DNA of 47,259 bases from an uncultured Clostridiaceae bacterium (GTDB taxonomy: Bacteria; Bacillota; Clostridia; Lachnospirales; Lachnospiraceae): assembly GCA_946185495.1 (NCBI GenBank), contig CAMHJT010000002.1, positions 1-47,259 on the forward strand, in the 5' to 3' direction. Position 1 is the first letter of the stretch. Each line of letters starts with the position of its first letter. Shown here one piece after another: positions 2,466 to 47,259 of this stretch. Under the pieces are notes generated by a model, which was given only the letters and a program-made list of their open reading frames with translations, ran no database searches and was not told where the DNA came from. The translations under genes and the position numbers were made by a program.

Positions 2466-3380
2466 TCAGGATAGAAGGCTTTTGTGCTGGTCAAGAAATT
2501 CCAGATACGGCTTTCGATTATAAATACTGTCTGGGTTATGGCTGTACCATTCGTATTCCTGTTTCAGCCCGTCGGCAAGCGGAATGGTATCAGCCATCAG
2601 TGCTGTCTGTCTGCTGACATCGAGCATGTACTCATAATTGTGGAAACAGAAATAATTCCATAGAGGGATGGATGTATCTTCGATGCGGGCAAATTGCGCG
2701 GTCTTGCCGGCGGCTTCATAGCATAGCGTTACCCAGTCCCTGATCGAGACAGCCTCCGGATTGCCGACATTAAAGATGTGATCGGAGGGATGCTTCCCGA
2801 TCAGAATCTCAATGAAGCGGCATAAATCCGCGACATGGAAGAACTGAAGCTTCATCCCGTTGTTCGGCGGGAGATAAAAGATCCTGTCCTGCATTGCGCA
2901 GTCAAAGGGAAAGGCTTCCCTGTATAAATTTTCATAGATCCCATAAAAATAAGGCGGACGCAGTATATATGCGCCAGGAACATGCTGGAGCAGATACTGT
3001 TCAGCCTTTACCTTATTTGCGCCGTAATCGCCCCAGATCGAGTTAAATCCAATGGCCTGCTCCTCGGTAAAGGGCTGGGGGTTCGTTTCAGGGTAAACAG
3101 CGCTGGAGCTGATGAAGACATAATCCGTAAACTGTACGCCGGAATCTAATAATGTCTGTATATGCTCTGCGGTATAAGCGGTGATATCCAGGATCACGTC
3201 AAAATGCCTGCCGGTTAAAGCGGAGCCTAACTGTGTGCGGTCGATTTGTATCAGTTCGGTGCCGGGAATCTGCTCCCTGCTTCCACGATTGATTACGGTG
3301 ACATGGTCGTTTCTTCTGACAAAATGTTCTGCAGTATATTTGCTTACAAAGGTTGTGCCGCCTGTGATCAGGATTTCCAT
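2466..3380 (-). CDS. NAD-dependent epimerase/dehydratase (extended SDR)
   Basis: 304 aa from the ATG at 3380, chosen because GGAGGAAAAC lies just upstream; the upstream in-frame ATG at 3419 falls in the repeat element and has no ribosome binding site. The N-terminus has the nucleotide-binding turn ILITGGTTFVSKYTAEHF, a GGTxFVS variant of the Rossmann glycine motif. The catalytic Tyr and Lys are in YGANKVKAE, preceded by the Ser-rich strand VFISSSAVYPE. The C-terminal half is a substrate domain with FFHVADLCRFIEIL and IFNVGNPEAVSIRDW. This resembles sugar-nucleotide epimerases and CSP41-like reductases. The substrate is unknown. It has its own promoter at 3488-3516. Confidence 0.8.
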   Translation of the reverse strand: MEILITGGTTFVSKYTAEHFVRRNDHVTVINRGSREQIPGTELIQIDRTQLGSALTGRHFDVILDITAYTAEHIQTLLDSGVQFTDYVFISSSAVYPETNPQPFTEEQAIGFNSIWGDYGANKVKAEQYLLQHVPGAYILRPPYFYGIYENLYREAFPFDCAMQDRIFYLPPNNGMKLQFFHVADLCRFIEILIGKHPSDHIFNVGNPEAVSIRDWVTLCYEAAGKTAQFARIEDTSIPLWNYFCFHNYEYMLDVSRQTALMADTIPLADGLKQEYEWYSHNPDSIYNRKPYLEFLDQHKSLLS

Positions 3381-3412: not shown

Positions 3413-3472
3413 TAGGCAATTTATATTTTGCCCAAAGCCGGTCGAAAAAGAAGATTGCTTCGCGATTGCCTG
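3413..3472. repeat. family-1 inverted-repeat element, copy F (internally deleted)
   Basis: A short 60-bp copy keeps both ends (AGGCAAT at left, GATTGCCT at right) and the right-arm block AAAGCCGGTCGAAAAAG, while most of the left arm and loop are missing. It lies inside the 5' leader of the minus-strand epimerase, 33 nt before its ATG. A-rich imperfect repeats (AAAAAAGTATTT / AAAAAATGCATT) flank it. The rest of 3517-3640 shows nothing recognisable. Confidence 0.6.
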
Positions 3473-5464: not shown

Positions 5465-5740
5465 AAACCGTTGATGCGGAGATAACGGCAATGATGCCTT
5501 TACAGAGAGCCTGTGGTGCTGAGAATCAGGTGAGAAACAAGTTGTCAAATGGACCGCTGAGGGCGCAGTCAAATGGAGAGCTCCAGAGTATTCTGCGACG
5601 TTGCAGGCAGACGTTACATTGCCGGGGATATGTTGGTATCCTGCAAAGCGCATGGTTTCCCATGAATCAAGGTGGCACCGCGGATTGTTATGTATACATT
5701 CGCCCTTGACAGAAAGAATATTTCTGTCAGGGGTTTTTTT
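5465..5740 (+). promoter_or_regulatory. T-box riboswitch, tRNA-Trp specific, controlling trpEGDCFBA
   Basis: Stem I landmarks are present: ACAGAGAGCC followed by GTGGTGCTGAGAA, then the specifier region CAAATGGACCGCTGAG with codon TGG (Trp) at 5550-5552. The T-box sequence AAGGTGGCACCGCG is at 5669-5682. Its bulge reads TGGC, whose last base C pairs with a G discriminator, which is the base found at position 73 of tRNA-Trp. Specifier and discriminator therefore agree. A terminator follows at 5703-5740. Uncharged tRNA-Trp should stabilise the antiterminator and switch on the operon. The 5' boundary is approximate. Confidence 0.93.
5703..5740 (+). terminator. T-box regulated terminator
   Basis: Stem CCCTTGACAGAAA / TTTCTGTCAGGGG with loop GAATA, then seven T residues. 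It competes with the antiterminator that contains the T-box sequence. Confidence 0.9.
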
Positions 5741-5843
5741 GTGCAGGAAATATGTGTTTTTCGCCGGTATTAGGAACGTTAGCCCTCAAAATATATCCTG
5801 CATAAAGCCGATCGAAAAAGTATATTGTTTGAAAATTGCTTGA
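5741..5843 (+). repeat. family-1 inverted-repeat element, copy A (left end missing)
   Basis: The apical and right-arm blocks match the family: TTTTTCGCCGGTATTAGGAA, AACGTTAGCC, GCCGATCGAAAAAGTATATTG. The left terminal repeat is absent and the element abuts the T run of the T-box terminator. The arms GTGCAGGAAATAT and ATATATCCTGCAT pair. It ends 26 nt before the trpE start, so it is transcribed only when the T-box is read through. Confidence 0.75.
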
Positions 5844-5868: not shown

Positions 5869-7332
5869 ATGATGAACTTATTGCCTGAGCTTGAGGAGGT
5901 TAAACGAATCGCAGAGAGCGGCCGGTACAGCGTGCTGCCGGTAAGCTGCGAGATCCTGTCGGATTTTACGACGCCGATTGAGACTGTGCGGATCCTGAAG
6001 GGCGTGTCGAAGCATTGTTATCTGTTGGAGTCCGCGCAGGCCAATGATACCTGGGGGAGGTATTCTTTTCTGGGATTTGATCCCGTCAACTGTGTGACCT
6101 GCCTGGACGGCGTGCTGAAGGATGGGGAGCAGGAGTTTACGGACAGGAATCCGTCAGAGTATCTGAGGAGCCTGCTTGCGCAATACCGCAGTCCGCGTTT
6201 TTCTTATCTGCCGCCCTTTACAGGGGGCTTTGTGGGATATTTTTCCTACGATTATATCGGATACAGCGAACCGGAGGCCCGGTGCGCGGTGGAGGATACC
6301 GAGTCCTTCCAGGATGTGGATGTGATGCTGTTTGACAAGGTGATCGCGTTTGACCATGTCAAGCAGAAGATTATCCTGATCGTCAACATGAAGCTGGATG
6401 AACCGGAGAAGGCCTACAGGGAGGCCGAAGAAGAGCTTGGGAAGCTTGTGCGGCTGCTGCAGGGTGGTCAGCGGAAGGAGGAGCCGGGAGGAAGGCTGAC
6501 CGGAGAGGTGACGCCGTTGTTTTCGAAAGAGGAGTACTGCCGGATGGTGGAGCGCGCAAAGCACTATATCCGTGAGGGAGACATTTTTCAGATCGTGTTG
6601 TCCAACCGCCTGTCCGCGCCGTATGAGGGCAGCCTGTTAAACAGCTATCGGATTCTGAGGACCATGAACCCGTCGCCATATATGTTTTATTTTGCCGGGA
6701 CGGATGTGGAGGTCGCGGGTGCTTCGCCGGAGACGCTGGTAAAGCTGGACAGAGGGGTGCTGCACACATTTCCGCTGGCGGGAACCAGGCCGAGGGGATA
6801 TACGCAGGAGGAGGATCTCAGGCTGGAGCGGGAGCTTCTGGCGGATGAAAAGGAACTGGCAGAGCACAATATGCTGGTGGATCTGGGCAGAAATGATCTG
6901 GGGAGGATCAGCAGATTTGGAACGGTGCAGGTGGAGAAGCTTCATTCGATCGAGCGGTTTTCCCATGTCATGCATATCGGCTCGACGGTGCGCGGACAGA
7001 TCCGGGAGGATAAGGACGCGCTGGATGCTATCGAGTCGGTATTGCCGGCCGGCACGCTGTCCGGTGCGCCGAAGGTCCGAGCATGCCAGCTCATCGGCGA
7101 GCTTGAGAATAATAAGCGCGGGATTTACGGCGGCGCCATTGGTTATATTGATTTTACCGGCAACATGGATACCTGTATCGCGATCCGGCTCATTTACAAG
7201 AAGAACGGTAAGGTATTTGTGCGCAGCGGAGCCGGGATCGTGGCGGATTCCGTTCCCGAAAAGGAGTATGAGGAGTGCCTGAATAAAGCCAAGGCTTCCC
7301 TCCGGGCCCTTGAGATTGGAGGTGCGCTATGA
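5869..7332 (+). CDS. trpE: anthranilate synthase component I
   Basis: 487 aa from the ATG at 5869, placed after GGGAGG; the upstream ATG at 5848 precedes that ribosome binding site. It makes anthranilate from chorismate with ammonia supplied by TrpG, in the cytoplasm. The feedback-binding motif LLES is present near residue 50 ([20 protein letters not shown]), so inhibition by tryptophan is likely. The chorismate-binding half contains [57 protein letters not shown] and [16 protein letters not shown]. First gene of the trp operon, with a 4-bp ATGA overlap with trpG indicating translational coupling. Confidence 0.97.
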
Positions 7333-9887: not shown

Positions 9888-9905
9888 AGCTTTGCAGACC
9901 GGACG

Positions 9906-9983
9906 GTGTTCGCAAATAGCCCTTCGTTGCAAATAAACCATCCTTTGGAAGCCTGTGCACTGGCTGAAGGGTGGAGTGTTACA
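9906..9983 (+). repeat. family-2 intergenic repeat, copy R1 (half element)
   Basis: It matches the right half of the copy at 19548-19833: GTTCGCAAATAGCCCTTCG, then TTGCAAATAAAC, TGGAAGCCTGTGCACTGG and a GTTAC end. The left half is absent. It fills most of the trpC-trpF gap. Confidence 0.7.
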
Positions 9984-16799: not shown

Positions 16800-17830
16800 G
16801 GACTGGTAAATTACCAGAGCATACCCTGAAGCGTTCCGTATTGCATCCGATCCGCTACCGTTCCGGGAGGAACGGGCTTTGGCCTGGAATCGGATTTGAT
16901 GGGGCAGTGTCTGGCAGCATGGTAACAGCCATGGCCGGCACTGCCTTTTATTATCATGGAAACGAATTGTATGCTCTTGATGGCGCGCTGAATAACGTGA
17001 TTGCTGCGGGAGGAAAACCGTACGGGATCGGGGTGGCAATCCTGCTGCCCGAACACAGTGAAGAGGCACTGCTTGCGGATATTACGGGGAATCTGTACAG
17101 GAGGGCGGAGCAGTATCGCCTGGATATCCTGACCGGACATACAGAGCTGGTGCCTGTGGTGACGGAGCCTGTGGTGATGATCACCGCGTATGGCACAAAA
17201 ATATGGGAAAACAGGCATGAGCTTGTCAGGCCGGGAATGGACATCGTGATGACAAAATGGTGCGGCCTGTATGGCGGCGCGATCCTGGCGCAGCTGAAAA
17301 TGGAACAGCTGCTTTCCAGATATCCGAAAAGCTATATCCGCGGCACAGCCGCGTATCTGGAGCAGACAGGCCTGTTCACGGAGCTTGCGGTGCTGGAAGC
17401 GCTTGCAGGACAGGAAGGACAGGAGCAGGATCATAACTCAATTGACGGCAGGCCGGTGGTTTACGCGGCGCATGATGTCTCAAACGGGGGCGTATTCGGG
17501 GCGCTGTGGCAGCTGCTTGACGCGTGCCGGAGCGGCGGTGAGATCTGGCTTGACAGGATTCCGGTCAGGCAGGAGATCATTGAGGTCAGCAATTATTTTG
17601 ACATCAATCCGTACCTGATGAACGGGCAGGGAAGCCTGCTGCTTGTGACAGACAGGGGACAGCAGCTTGTGGAGGCTTTCCGGGCGCAAGGACTTACAGC
17701 AGAGGTGATCGGAGCCACAAGGGCCGGGAAGGACAGGAAGGTGATCCTGGAGGAGGAAGAAAGATTCCTGACGCCGCCGAAGGGAGACGCACTCCACGCG
17801 GTGATGTACGGACAGCCGCTTCCCGCATAG
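16796..17830 (+). CDS. AIR-synthase-related protein (PurM/HypE/ThiL superfamily)
   Basis: 344 aa. The ATG overlaps the VanW stop codon. The N-terminal AIRS domain contains ALDGALNNVIAAGGKPYGIGVAILLPE in place of the usual ATP-binding Asp-rich motif. The C-terminal AIRS_C half has GQGSLLLVTDRGQQLV and VVYAAHDVSNGGVFGALWQLL, which matches HypE-like AHDVSxGG. No hyp operon or hydrogenase genes are nearby, so a true HypE role is unlikely. Members of this group occur as orphan genes of unknown substrate. Confidence 0.75.
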   Translation: MRTGKLPEHTLKRSVLHPIRYRSGRNGLWPGIGFDGAVSGSMVTAMAGTAFYYHGNELYALDGALNNVIAAGGKPYGIGVAILLPEHSEEALLADITGNLYRRAEQYRLDILTGHTELVPVVTEPVVMITAYGTKIWENRHELVRPGMDIVMTKWCGLYGGAILAQLKMEQLLSRYPKSYIRGTAAYLEQTGLFTELAVLEALAGQEGQEQDHNSIDGRPVVYAAHDVSNGGVFGALWQLLDACRSGGEIWLDRIPVRQEIIEVSNYFDINPYLMNGQGSLLLVTDRGQQLVEAFRAQGLTAEVIGATRAGKDRKVILEEEERFLTPPKGDALHAVMYGQPLPA

Positions 17831-17831
17831 A

Positions 17832-17872
17832 GGGGAGCCAATCAAAAACGTATATTGTTTCGCAATCATTTA
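17832..17872 (+). repeat. family-1 inverted-repeat element, copy G (right end only)
   Basis: GGAGCCAATCAAAAACGTATA followed by TTGTTTCGCAATCATTTAG matches the right arm and right terminus of the family. It begins one base after the upstream stop codon and ends 32 nt before the Lrp start. Confidence 0.6.
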
Positions 17873-19570: not shown

Positions 19571-19833
19571 TTTGTTACCTGCCGGACGGCTCCCGGCAGA
19601 TAGTTCATTTGCACTCCGGGCACGAGCTAAAGCATACCTTCGAACTAAGCGCGCCCGGCGCCTATGGCTTGGGCTTGCTAAGGTCTCAGGCATTGCTCTT
19701 AGTTGCTCACGCAGCGGTACTAGGTTCGCTTCCTTCGTCAGTTCACCAAGGACCGGCGTTCGCAAATAGCCCTTCGTTGCAAATAAACTATCCTCTGGGA
19801 GCCTGTGTATTGGTTGAAAGGTGATTTGTTAAG
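19548..19833. repeat. family-2 inverted-repeat element, copy R2 (complete)
   Basis: The left end, GTAACAGTTCACCTTTTGGC then GATAGTTCATTTGCACTCC, is the inverted counterpart of the right end TTGCAAATAAACTATCC, GGGAGCCTG and GAAAGGTGATTTGTTAA. The interior (about 19640-19760) contains no gene. Copies R1 (9906) and R3 (43681) share the ends. It begins inside the aminotransferase coding region. Confidence 0.75.
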
Positions 19834-19943: not shown

Positions 19944-20084
19944 AGGAAATTACGGAACTTGAAATGTAAATTGAGGATCCTGGCAGGATATATGTTTTTT
20001 CGCCGGCATTAGGAACATCGGCCAAGAAAAAATATATATCCAGCCAGGAGCCGGGAAAAAAGTGTATTGTTTCGCTGCTGTCTG
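19944..20084 (+). repeat. family-1 inverted-repeat element, copy B (complete)
   Basis: Left end AGGAAATTACGGAAC and right end GTTTCGCTGCTGTCTG are degenerate terminal repeats. The inner arms ATCCTGGCAGGATATATG and ATATATCCAGCCAGGAG pair around the loop CGCCGGCATTAGGAACATCG. Imperfect 12-bp direct repeats (ATGCTTGGTGAA / GTGATCAGTGAA) flank it. It ends 32 nt before the trmL start. Confidence 0.8.
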
Positions 20085-23006: not shown

Positions 23007-23150
23007 TAGGTAATTGTGAAACTCAAAATGTAGATGGAGGCTCCTAGCTGGCGATATGTTTTTTCGCAGGCATTAGGAAACGTTAGCCAAGAAAAAATAT
23101 ATAGCCTGCTGGGAGCCGATCAAAAAAGTATATGGTTTCGCAAACGCCTG
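23007..23150 (+). repeat. family-1 inverted-repeat element, copy C (complete)
   Basis: Ends AGGTAATTGTGAAAC and GTTTCGCAAACGCCT are inverted repeats. The inner arms GGAGGCTCCTAGCTGGCGAT and CTGCTGGGAGCC pair, and the loop contains CGCAGGCATTAGG and AACGTTAGCC. Possible worn flanking repeats are TTGTAGGGGACAT and TTGCAGGGTATAG (9 of 13). It ends 28 nt before the response-regulator start. Confidence 0.8.
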
Positions 23151-33385: not shown

Positions 33386-33526
33386 CAGGCGATTGCGAAA
33401 CAATACACTTTTTGACCGGCTTTGTGCAAGTTCTATATTTTTTTCTGGCTAACGTTCTTGATGCCGGCGAAAAATATATATCATGCACAAATCCTTGATC
33501 TGCATTTCGGGTTTCGCAATTGCCTG
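33386..33526 (-). repeat. family-1 inverted-repeat element, copy D (complete, reversed)
   Basis: Ends CAGGCGATTGCGAAAC and GTTTCGCAATTGCCTG are 16-bp inverted repeats with one mismatch or two. The family loop sequence reads on the minus strand (CGCCGGCATCAAGAACGTTAG). The inner arms TTTGTGCA and TGCACAAA replace the GC-rich arms of other copies. TTCGAAGTATC (33376-33386) and TTCAAAGTATC (33527-33537) are flanking direct repeats with one mismatch. It ends 30 nt before the cyclase start. Confidence 0.85.
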
Positions 33527-42667: not shown

Positions 42668-42789
42668 CTCCCGCATGAAAAATCTGCCTTATCTAAACCT
42701 ATACGGATTGAAAGATGGCGCGCCGGACGACAGAGGAGCTTTTGTTCAGCAGCGGAGGGTTCAGCAGCTGGGTAATTACTTGAAAAAAA

Positions 42790-42932
42790 CAGGTAATTGC
42801 GAAACTCAAAATGTAGACTGAGGCTTCCGGCAGGATATATGTTTTTTCGCCGGCATTAGGAACGTTGGCCAAGAAAAAATATATATCCAGCAGGAACCCG
42901 ATCGAAAAAGTACATTGTTTCGCAAAAGCCTA
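42790..42932 (+). repeat. family-1 inverted-repeat element, copy E (complete)
   Basis: Ends AGGTAATTGCGAAAC and GTTTCGCAAAAGCCT are inverted repeats. Inner arms GGATATATGTTTTTTC and GAAAAAATATATATCC pair nearly perfectly. ACTTGAAAAAAAC (42778-42790) and ACTTGAAATAAAC (42933-42945) are flanking direct repeats, 12 of 13 identical. It ends 32 nt before the PII-like start. Confidence 0.88.
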
Positions 42933-42963
42933 ACTTGAAATAAACCTATGGAGGGATCAGGGC

Positions 42964-43674
42964 ATGCTCACATTTCATAAGGATTCGGAATACAGGATAC
43001 TATTTCTCATTGCGGTGCCGAAGGTGGTGGTGAAGGCTGCACATCTGCTGGAGGAGGAGAAGCTGCCAGTGCATTATCAGTTCTTTGCCCAGGGCACCGC
43101 TTCCAGCAGGATCATGGACCTGCTGGGATTAGGCGGCGTGGACAAGCTTGTGCTTTGCGCGCTGGCGCCGGAGCCTTTCGCAAAACGGATTCTTGGGCTG
43201 ATGCGGGAGAGGCTGCAGCTTAAAAAGCCGAACAGCGGGGTGGCGTTTACGGTTTCCCTAACTGCTGGGACAGCGGGGCTGATGCGGCTGGTTGATCCGC
43301 TGAAACCGGATGGGGAAACGATGCAGAATGAAAGGATGGGAGAAATGATGAAGGAACAGGAATACAGCATGATTGTGGCGCTTGTCAACCAGGGCTTCAG
43401 TGAGGACGTGATGAAGGCGGCGAACCGGGCTGGCGCGAAGGGCGGGACGGTATTTCACTGCCGCAGAACCGGAAGTGAGGAGGCAGCGAGGTTCTGGGGC
43501 ATCACGATCCAGCAGGAGCGGGAGGTGGTCATGATCCTTGCGCCAAGGGCGGAGAAGGCGGGCATCATGGAGGCGGTCAATGCGGACTGCGGCGTACAGA
43601 GTGAGGCGCAGGGGATGGTGTTTTCTCTTCCGGTGGACGATATCGCAGGTCTGGCGCCGGCGGGCGGAGCCTGA
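42964..43674 (+). CDS. tandem PII-like regulatory protein
   Basis: 236 aa, start behind GGAGGGATCAGGGC. Two ferredoxin-like PII-type halves. Half 1 (about 8-108) carries LFLIAVPKVVVKAAHLLEEEKLPVHY, and half 2 (about 125-232) carries YSMIVALVNQGFSEDVMKAANRAGAKGGTV. The second half matches GlnB/PII-like EYSMIVaxVNqGfsd..M.aAr.aGA.GGTv. The classic uridylylated T-loop Tyr is not evident in either half. With the upstream DUF1538 transporter it likely forms a transporter-regulator pair. Confidence 0.85.
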   Translation: MLTFHKDSEYRILFLIAVPKVVVKAAHLLEEEKLPVHYQFFAQGTASSRIMDLLGLGGVDKLVLCALAPEPFAKRILGLMRERLQLKKPNSGVAFTVSLTAGTAGLMRLVDPLKPDGETMQNERMGEMMKEQEYSMIVALVNQGFSEDVMKAANRAGAKGGTVFHCRRTGSEEAARFWGITIQQEREVVMILAPRAEKAGIMEAVNADCGVQSEAQGMVFSLPVDDIAGLAPAGGA

Positions 43675-43680
43675 TCTTTC

Positions 43681-43826
43681 TTCTGCCAATTAACAGGCTC
43701 CTGGAGGATAGTTTATTTGCAACGGAGGGCAAGTCTGATCCGAAGGTATCCGTCAGCCCGTGCCAGGAGTGTAAATGAACTATCCGTCGGGTATGTAACA
43801 GATTAGTCAAAGGTTAAACTGTCACG
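43681..43826 (-). repeat. family-2 inverted-repeat element, copy R3 (complete)
   Basis: The arms GAGGATAGTTTATTTGCAAC (left) and GTGTAAATGAACTATCC (right) are inverted. The outer right end GTAACAGATTAGTCAAAGG then TTAAACTGTCACG is the reverse complement of the left end of R2. It fills most of the 262-bp gap before the Fic genes. Confidence 0.72.
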
Positions 43827-46874: not shown

Positions 46875-47177
46875 ATGGTAAAGCATGTGATACTCTGGCA
46901 GCTGAAGGACGAGCTGACACCGGAGGACAAGAGAAAAGTGAAAACGGATATCAAGGCGGAACTGGAGGGGCTGGCCGGACAGATTCCAGGGCTTTTGGAG
47001 ATCAGGGTGCAGACGGAAGGCCTTGCGTCCTCCAATGCGGATCTGATGCTGGATTCATCATTTGAGGATGAGGCTTCGCTCAAGGGCTATGCGGTTCACC
47101 CGGCGCATGTCGCAGTAGCAGACGGCGCTGTGCGGCCTTACACAAAAGCAAGAGTCTGCATGGATTATGCCGTGTGA
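46875..47177 (+). CDS. Dabb-domain (stress-responsive A/B barrel) protein
   Basis: 100 aa from the ATG at 46875 behind GGATCAGGAGGAAAAGAT. It starts MVKHVILWQLKD, which is the Dabb consensus, and has GLLEIRVQTEGLASSNADLML and a C-terminal GYAVHPAHVAVADGAVRPY. Small dimeric ferredoxin-like barrel. The function in bacteria is generally unassigned. The 3' end of the gene is duplicated in the next 64 bp. Confidence 0.88.
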   Translation: MVKHVILWQLKDELTPEDKRKVKTDIKAELEGLAGQIPGLLEIRVQTEGLASSNADLMLDSSFEDEASLKGYAVHPAHVAVADGAVRPYTKARVCMDYAV

Positions 47178-47259
47178 TGGCACAGGGCAGGCGGCGCGGC
47201 CTTGCACAAAAGCAAGAGTCTGCATGGATTATGCCGTGTGATGGCACAGGGCAGGCGGC
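47132..47259 (+). repeat. 64-bp tandem duplication at the right edge
   Basis: Unit 1 is 47132-47195 and unit 2 is 47196-47259; both run from GCGGCCTT to GGGCAGGCGGC and differ at one position (A to G). The unit covers the last 46 bases of the Dabb gene, including its stop. The period is not a multiple of three and the window ends exactly at the unit end. Confidence 0.9.

Follow-up and report, generated by a model that had tools for sequence, protein, structure and literature searches.

A transposon lineage in Lachnospiraceae and other Clostridia that very probably targets the Shine-Dalgarno motif and so places its MITEs just upstream of genes

By relating the genome-wide positions of a short hairpin repeat to the insertion sites of an IS in related bacteria, our work here suggests that a transposon lineage, comprising both the IS and its MITEs, very probably uses the Shine-Dalgarno (SD) motif as its target. 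The repeats, referred to here as family 1, are MITEs: short, non-coding, bounded by TIRs and present in many copies. We posit that 1.75-kb ISs with the same ends would supply the DDE transposase, a distant relative of that of IS1182, by which they move, and that the transposase complex would recognise an AT-rich stretch followed by an SD-like purine motif (AARGGAGR), inserting the element some 18 nt before the GGAG core and duplicating about 10–13 bp. Of the two ends of the autonomous IS, the one facing the motif is the left, on the 5' side of the transposase gene. Because GGAG would precede the start codon by about 12 nt in most genes of these bacteria, insertions would end about 30 nt before starts, and those within genes would mostly be lost to selection.

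The window, which is the whole 47,259-nt stretch analysed, is contig C2 of a 2.91-Mb draft assembly of 257 contigs (92% complete). The original prediction had seen in it seven hairpin copies at a fixed distance before start codons, and this is borne out: all seven are present, and from copy 3413 to copy 42790 the gap between element and start codon measures, in order, 32, 27, 32, 32, 28, 30 and 32 nt, thus 27–32 nt, with some ends extrapolated from the profile match and the trpE distance taken to ATG 5869 rather than to the in-frame ATG 5848. The genes behind the copies had been called unrelated, and a Pfam scan of those behind six copies (the gene behind copy 3413 was left out) indeed returned different families, namely trpE, Lrp/AsnC, SpoU methylase, response regulator, cyclase and P-II. 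The copies first placed at 3413, 5741 and 17832 are partial, and that at 33386 is inverted relative to its gene, with flanks TTCGAAGTATC / TTCAAAGTATC. In the cleanest copy, the last base of the far duplication copy is also the first base of the element. The features are as follows.

3413–3470, plus strand: partial MITE copy, 32 nt before the predicted start (3380) of a minus-strand gene, 2466–3380
5738–5841, plus strand: partial MITE copy with extrapolated right end, 27 nt ahead of the trpE ATG at 5869
17830–17871, plus strand: MITE 3' fragment, 32 nt before the ATG (17904) of an Lrp/AsnC-type gene
19944–20083, plus strand: MITE copy with decayed left end, 32 nt before the TTG (20116) of a SpoU methylase gene
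23008–23149, plus strand: full MITE copy, 28 nt before the ATG (23178) of a response-regulator gene
33387–33525, minus strand: full MITE copy in the opposite orientation to its gene, 30 nt before the ATG (33556) of a cyclase gene
42778–42790, plus strand: far copy of the target-site duplication, ACTTGAAAAAAAC, matching the near copy at 12 of 13 positions
42790–42932, plus strand: full MITE copy, the cleanest in the window, TIRs CAGGTAATTGCGAAAC / GTTTCGCAAAAGCCTA
42933–42945, plus strand: near copy of the target-site duplication, ACTTGAAATAAAC
42950–42954, plus strand: SD sequence GGAGG ahead of the P-II-like gene, proposed as the target address, a role inferred from IS sites
42964–43674, plus strand: P-II-like gene (Pfam) behind the cleanest copy

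Across the assembly, with start codons taken from our own gene caller rather than from annotation, the same position recurs. A profile HMM scan of 440 kb, which included the window and consisted mostly of stretches chosen for earlier search matches, found at least 98 family-1 places, a lower bound for the copy number. The best 40 of 111 BLAST candidates were scored, a covariance model gave at least 129 rows from 150 of 1452 candidates, with many places counted on both strands, and a pattern search found 80 TIR-like sites in the assembly versus 46 in a reversed control; an exact-pattern scan of the genome contigs for the inner hairpin had no matches. The distribution of distances from element end to start codon, proposed as the check on the prediction, has a tight peak in these 440 kb: 72 of the 76 element/start pairs no more than 60 nt apart lie at 22–38 nt, with a mode of 31. 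If each element were placed uniformly within the intergenic gap that holds it, 21.5 of the 91 testable places would be expected at 22–38 nt, and 70 are found there (P ~2e-33; seven of the 98 were skipped, having no gene on one side). The remaining 21 places lie off the peak and seem to comprise, among others, copies cut in two by another element, truncated copies and missed gene calls.

Such a distribution could also arise if insertion were loosely random in AT-rich DNA and copies survived only just upstream of the SD sequence, where promoter, ribosome-binding site and coding sequence are all spared; none of the family-1 copies was placed by the scan within a predicted gene, and starts seem to be favoured more strongly by the old MITE copies than by the IS sites described below, as this reading would have it. 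Yet where the gap measures 150 nt or more, 27 of 40 places still lie at 22–38 nt against 3.4 expected, and none of the 21 places that a second repeat family occupies in these stretches is at that distance from a start. Given also that the polarity of the IS is fixed, with the motif outside its left end only, and that non-start and intragenic IS sites have both motif and spacing, we regard survival as the source of the pattern as very improbable.

Other repeats were noted along the way. The second family (GTTGCAAATAAACTATCC...) occupies 9904–9981, 19592–19642, 19754–19831 and 43680–43791 in the window, and 21 places in the scanned stretches. A third family, with the motif GTAACTACTCAGCAGGTCTGCGCATTCAC and GTAACTACTCAGCAGG ends, occurs at L091, L097, L113, L117 and other loci, in several places inside or beside family-1 copies, and accounts for some of the off-peak distances. 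At the contig end, window positions 47127–47254 hold a 64-bp direct tandem duplication, 95% identical.

The family-1 consensus is about 143 bp long with ends (C/T)AGGYAATTGCGAAAC...GTTTCGCAAACGCCT(G/A); its TIR is TAGGYNNTTGCGAAAC, its target duplications are about 10–13 bp, and it occurs in both orientations. Flanking repeats scoring at least 8 were found at 14 of 53 full copies compared with 0.16% in shuffled pairings, and in 12 of those 14 they are 10–13 nt long. The inner hairpin is nearly invariant and the stem varies with compensation, 14 of 38 stem pairs having changed on both sides; folding three copies, five strands in all, gave energies far lower than those of shuffles (z −5.5 to −8.3). 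This stability and these two-sided changes favour the other reading offered by the prediction, in which the hairpin is kept at that distance as a 5'-UTR regulator or mRNA stabiliser, but as the cause of position it fails on several counts and we hold it to be extremely unlikely. The elements lie 53 one way and 23 the other relative to the gene among the 76 pairs, not in the fixed orientation of a cis-regulatory 5'-UTR RNA, and the same place is taken by a coding IS, by a 207-bp MITE without this interior and by five TIR-only elements of 38, 39, 44, 55 and 57 bp, which lie 30–36 nt from starts. Because the TIR-only elements and the 207-bp MITE, whose interior is unrelated, share the place, the hairpin does not set the position and was ruled out as its cause.

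A riboswitch or other known RNA was likewise ruled out, there being no Rfam match above threshold, and a G-U strand asymmetry in the stem, judged by eye, was too weak to use. An inner hairpin core, GACAGCATTAGGAACGTTAGCCGAG, similar to that of family 1, is found also in repeats with quite different outer ends (L152, L158, L161, L165 and L167 in genome G014, L149 in G016), as if this core were a module common to several MITEs.

Beyond its own assembly, the family-1 model matches 8 of 59 related genomes, all eight of the same genus, and the TIR pattern occurs in 23 of the 26 genomes of that genus, the present one included. One congener, G015, carries at least 35 near-complete copies of the 207-bp MITE with its different interior; these 35 and six more from the congener G020 make up a sample of 41. 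Every one of the 41 has an SD-like 4-mer that starts 12–26 nt from an end of the element, the left in 21 and the right in 25, and 36 have a predicted start at 27–40 nt: 16 on the left only, 19 on the right only and one on both sides, its left one at 50 nt. Duplications of 10–15 bp flank 30 of the 41 as compared with 0.19 in shuffled pairings.

Congeners also carry an IS with the same TIRs as family 1; in G001 and G007 its paired TIRs are separated by 1,751 and 1,768 bp. In these genomes it encodes a 491-aa transposase with a DUF772 match above its cut-off and DDE matches below theirs. The NCBIfam IS1182 model gives the two scanned transposases 77.5 and 70.8 bits, the cut-off being 270, and matches all 18 aligned transposases (best E 1.9e-23). 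D147, D288 and E433 are invariant in these 18, down to 35% identity, and may form the catalytic triad; a sequence search against solved structures gave nothing useful. Scanning the named genomes yielded 78 transposase loci, labelled mostly Lachnospiraceae or other Clostridia, and in a sample of the class 26 of 391 genomes have matches. The window's own 257-contig draft, 92% complete, has no match to the transposase, and we infer that the transposase of the congeners' IS is what would move the MITEs of this genome.

The target sites of this IS are the most direct record of how the lineage would choose its place. We assembled 55 distinct left flanks, 41 from the 78 named-genome loci (the rest being truncated, not tried or with an unrecognised left end) and 14 from further sites, those of the class sample among them; of the 30 loci of that sample, 18 were scanned for ends, and several, including L268, L272, L276, L281, L282 and L283, gave no usable site. 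Counted outwards from the IS, positions 1–12 of the left flank average 9.7 A/T and a purine block comes next: GGAG, GAGG, GGGG or AGGA starts 13–24 nt outside the left end in 53 of 55 flanks, against a mean of 9.8 (s.d. 2.9) for shuffled flanks, and GGAG or GAGG alone accounts for 47; only L190 and L210 lack the motif. Outside the right end, the same motif occurs in 1 of 41 flanks, and GGAG or GAGG in none of the 41. Duplications of 10–13 bp were found at 29 of 41 sites as opposed to a mean of 0.14 in shuffled pairings. Distant members at 35–52% identity whose ends could be recognised, L277, L296, L279, L280 and L271 among them, have 10–12 bp duplications and the motif as well, and a Roseburia plasmid copy outside these counts (L431) has GGAG outside its left end and, by eye, no matching duplication. 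The end that faces the motif is TAGGCGTTTGCGAAAC, and in 53 of 76 pairs it is the corresponding MITE end that points towards the gene, so the IS polarity is partly kept in this genome's own MITEs; the 207-bp MITE is without polarity (right 20, left 17).

By rule, 33 of the 55 IS sites have a ribosome-binding site, a start and an ORF at 25–35 nt, and 20 of the 22 that fail the start rule still have the motif. The rule errs in both directions: starts were probably missed at some of the 22, L191, L222 and L226 among them, and L215 was counted though it is no gene start. In genome G241, IS copies split two ORFs (at L297, and at L293, of which L300 is the same site), lying upstream of in-frame TTTGGAGGTGATCC and TGGGAGGAGG with both halves open at the junction, and both intragenic motifs are on the sense strand. 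At L216 and L227 the IS lies before hairpins that look terminator-like by eye, and at L285 before a tRNA-like 5' sequence, the Rfam tRNA starting about 90 nt further on. L215 sits within the leader of a different IS copy, where it is antisense to the CTCCTCAC segment; there, the left end of the outer copy faces the complement of CTCCTCCT about 20 nt off. The arrangement may be an assembly fault, as the contig stops at the right end of the inner copy. Thus the non-start sites (two intragenic ones, the terminator-like hairpins and the other IS copy) keep both motif and spacing. Across the 39 IS sites with a start, the distance from the end to the GGAG core is 17.8 nt (s.d. 1.95) and that to the start 29.9 nt (s.d. 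2.70; P 0.008), and the G015/G020 set shows the same trend towards tighter spacing to GGAG than to the start, which is not significant (P 0.33). Tandem IS copies, or copies abutting another copy's end, were seen at L299 (G241) and L430 (a Butyrivibrio proteoclasticus plasmid), each with one target-like repeat between the adjoining copies.

We suggest that recognition would be of the DNA sequence itself, read by the transposase. One might instead suppose that targeting follows translation or transcription initiation, through a 30S complex, an open promoter or an R-loop; most of the sites are, after all, real ribosome-binding sites by the 33-of-55 count, and the two intragenic motifs lie on the sense strand. 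Some insertions, however, sit between tandem genes too close to leave space for a promoter (for instance on contig C230, where the upstream gene is 1 nt away); these, together with the sites at terminator-like hairpins, at the tRNA-like sequence and antisense of an IS leader, speak against this alternative and leave it very unlikely.

A second departure from direct reading would be a base-pairing guide, in which an anti-SD-like RNA, either the leader CTCCTCAC or the ribosome-bound 16S rRNA 3' end, directs the transposase to GGAG. The IS leaders (e.g. at L169 and relatives) do have a conserved CTCCTCAC segment upstream of the transposase gene. Judged by eye, this segment covaries with the transposase's own SD (AATAACTCCT/AGGAGTTATT and variants), which favours a simpler role: it is likely an inverted repeat that hides the ribosome-binding site of the transposase. 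As an obvious target guide the leader was therefore set aside, its covariation looking like sequestration, and we consider guidance by base pairing improbable; were it true, this would be a guide-like transposon that borrows the cell's translation code.

Direct reading of the motif by the transposase leaves a share for selection. When a motif model built on the IS sites was run on the genome's own DNA, the top 100 sites comprised 39 at starts, 43 within genes and 18 in other intergenic DNA; since only 39 of these 100 are at starts, selection or a further cue is needed for the old MITEs, and selection presumably contributes to the start preference. Taken together, motif reading and the removal of insertions from genes account for the larger part of the start preference seen in old MITEs, though not for the whole of it. 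Of the two halves of the earlier proposal that the element either targets or survives only at that position, it is targeting that gains: the IS, a MITE of unrelated interior and TIR-only elements share the place, and IS sites away from starts keep motif and spacing. Targeting of the start-proximal place by the element is thus strongly supported, while the role of 5'-UTR regulator that had been offered beside it falls away as the cause of position, both orientations being found and elements that lack the hairpin sharing the place.

With the IS1182 family, and IS1272 in it, the IS described here shares DUF772 and a DDE transposase, and it differs in its 10–13 bp duplications of AT-rich DNA before an SD motif. 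IS1272 reportedly replaces inverted repeats and makes no target duplication (PMC5678879). A control set of 30 loci of the NCBIfam IS1182 family, with ends found de novo, gave 19 with TIR-bearing ends; the SD motif occurs at 2 of 19 left and 1 of 19 right ends, and duplications of 7–12 nt at only 7 of 19, some ends being uncertain. Four of these 7 curated IS1182 loci (L400, L401, L404 and L425) have, by eye, 12-bp duplications that are inverted repeats and no SD motif, in agreement with the IS1272 targets given in the same source (PMC5678879). The target of the lineage studied here, judged by eye, is AT-rich DNA before GGAG and not an inverted repeat or palindrome of the IS1182 type. An IS256 control had usable element boundaries at 0 of 26 loci.

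Tn7 and the yeast elements Ty1 and Ty3 also have addresses near genes: Tn7 at attTn7, Ty1 and Ty3 upstream of Pol III genes, recognised through a specific gene end or through bound protein factors. The present lineage resembles them in using a conserved near-gene feature as a host-sparing address, and differs in that a short motif before most genes appears to be read. The MITEs themselves are like ERIC, Correia and RUP/BOX in being short, non-coding, intergenic and high in copy number, with TIRs, duplications and a hairpin. The pneumococcal BOX, RUP and SPRITE are overrepresented between convergent genes, as stated in their description (PMC3049150). A 2024 review of prokaryotic MITEs names intergenic or 3'-UTR preferences, and 'start codon', 'ribosome binding' and 'Shine-Dalgarno' never occur in its main text (PMC10969869). 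ISs in general are often within 100 bp of gene starts in a large survey, whose relevant passages give closeness to starts and no fixed distance (PMC9208149).

The SD motif as a transposition target is apparently undescribed in the open-access literature, in which we found no report of SD-targeted transposition, itself weak evidence of absence. Many ISs disrupt genes or have narrow targets. With the SD motif as its address, a transposon would have a landing site before most genes and do little damage, and it would make it possible to test directly how short, degenerate motifs are read by a transposase, with a possible use in tagging or tuning genes at their ribosome-binding sites. A lineage that targets this motif would put hairpins into 5' leaders genome-wide, and would explain the crowding of short repeats at gene starts in these bacteria.
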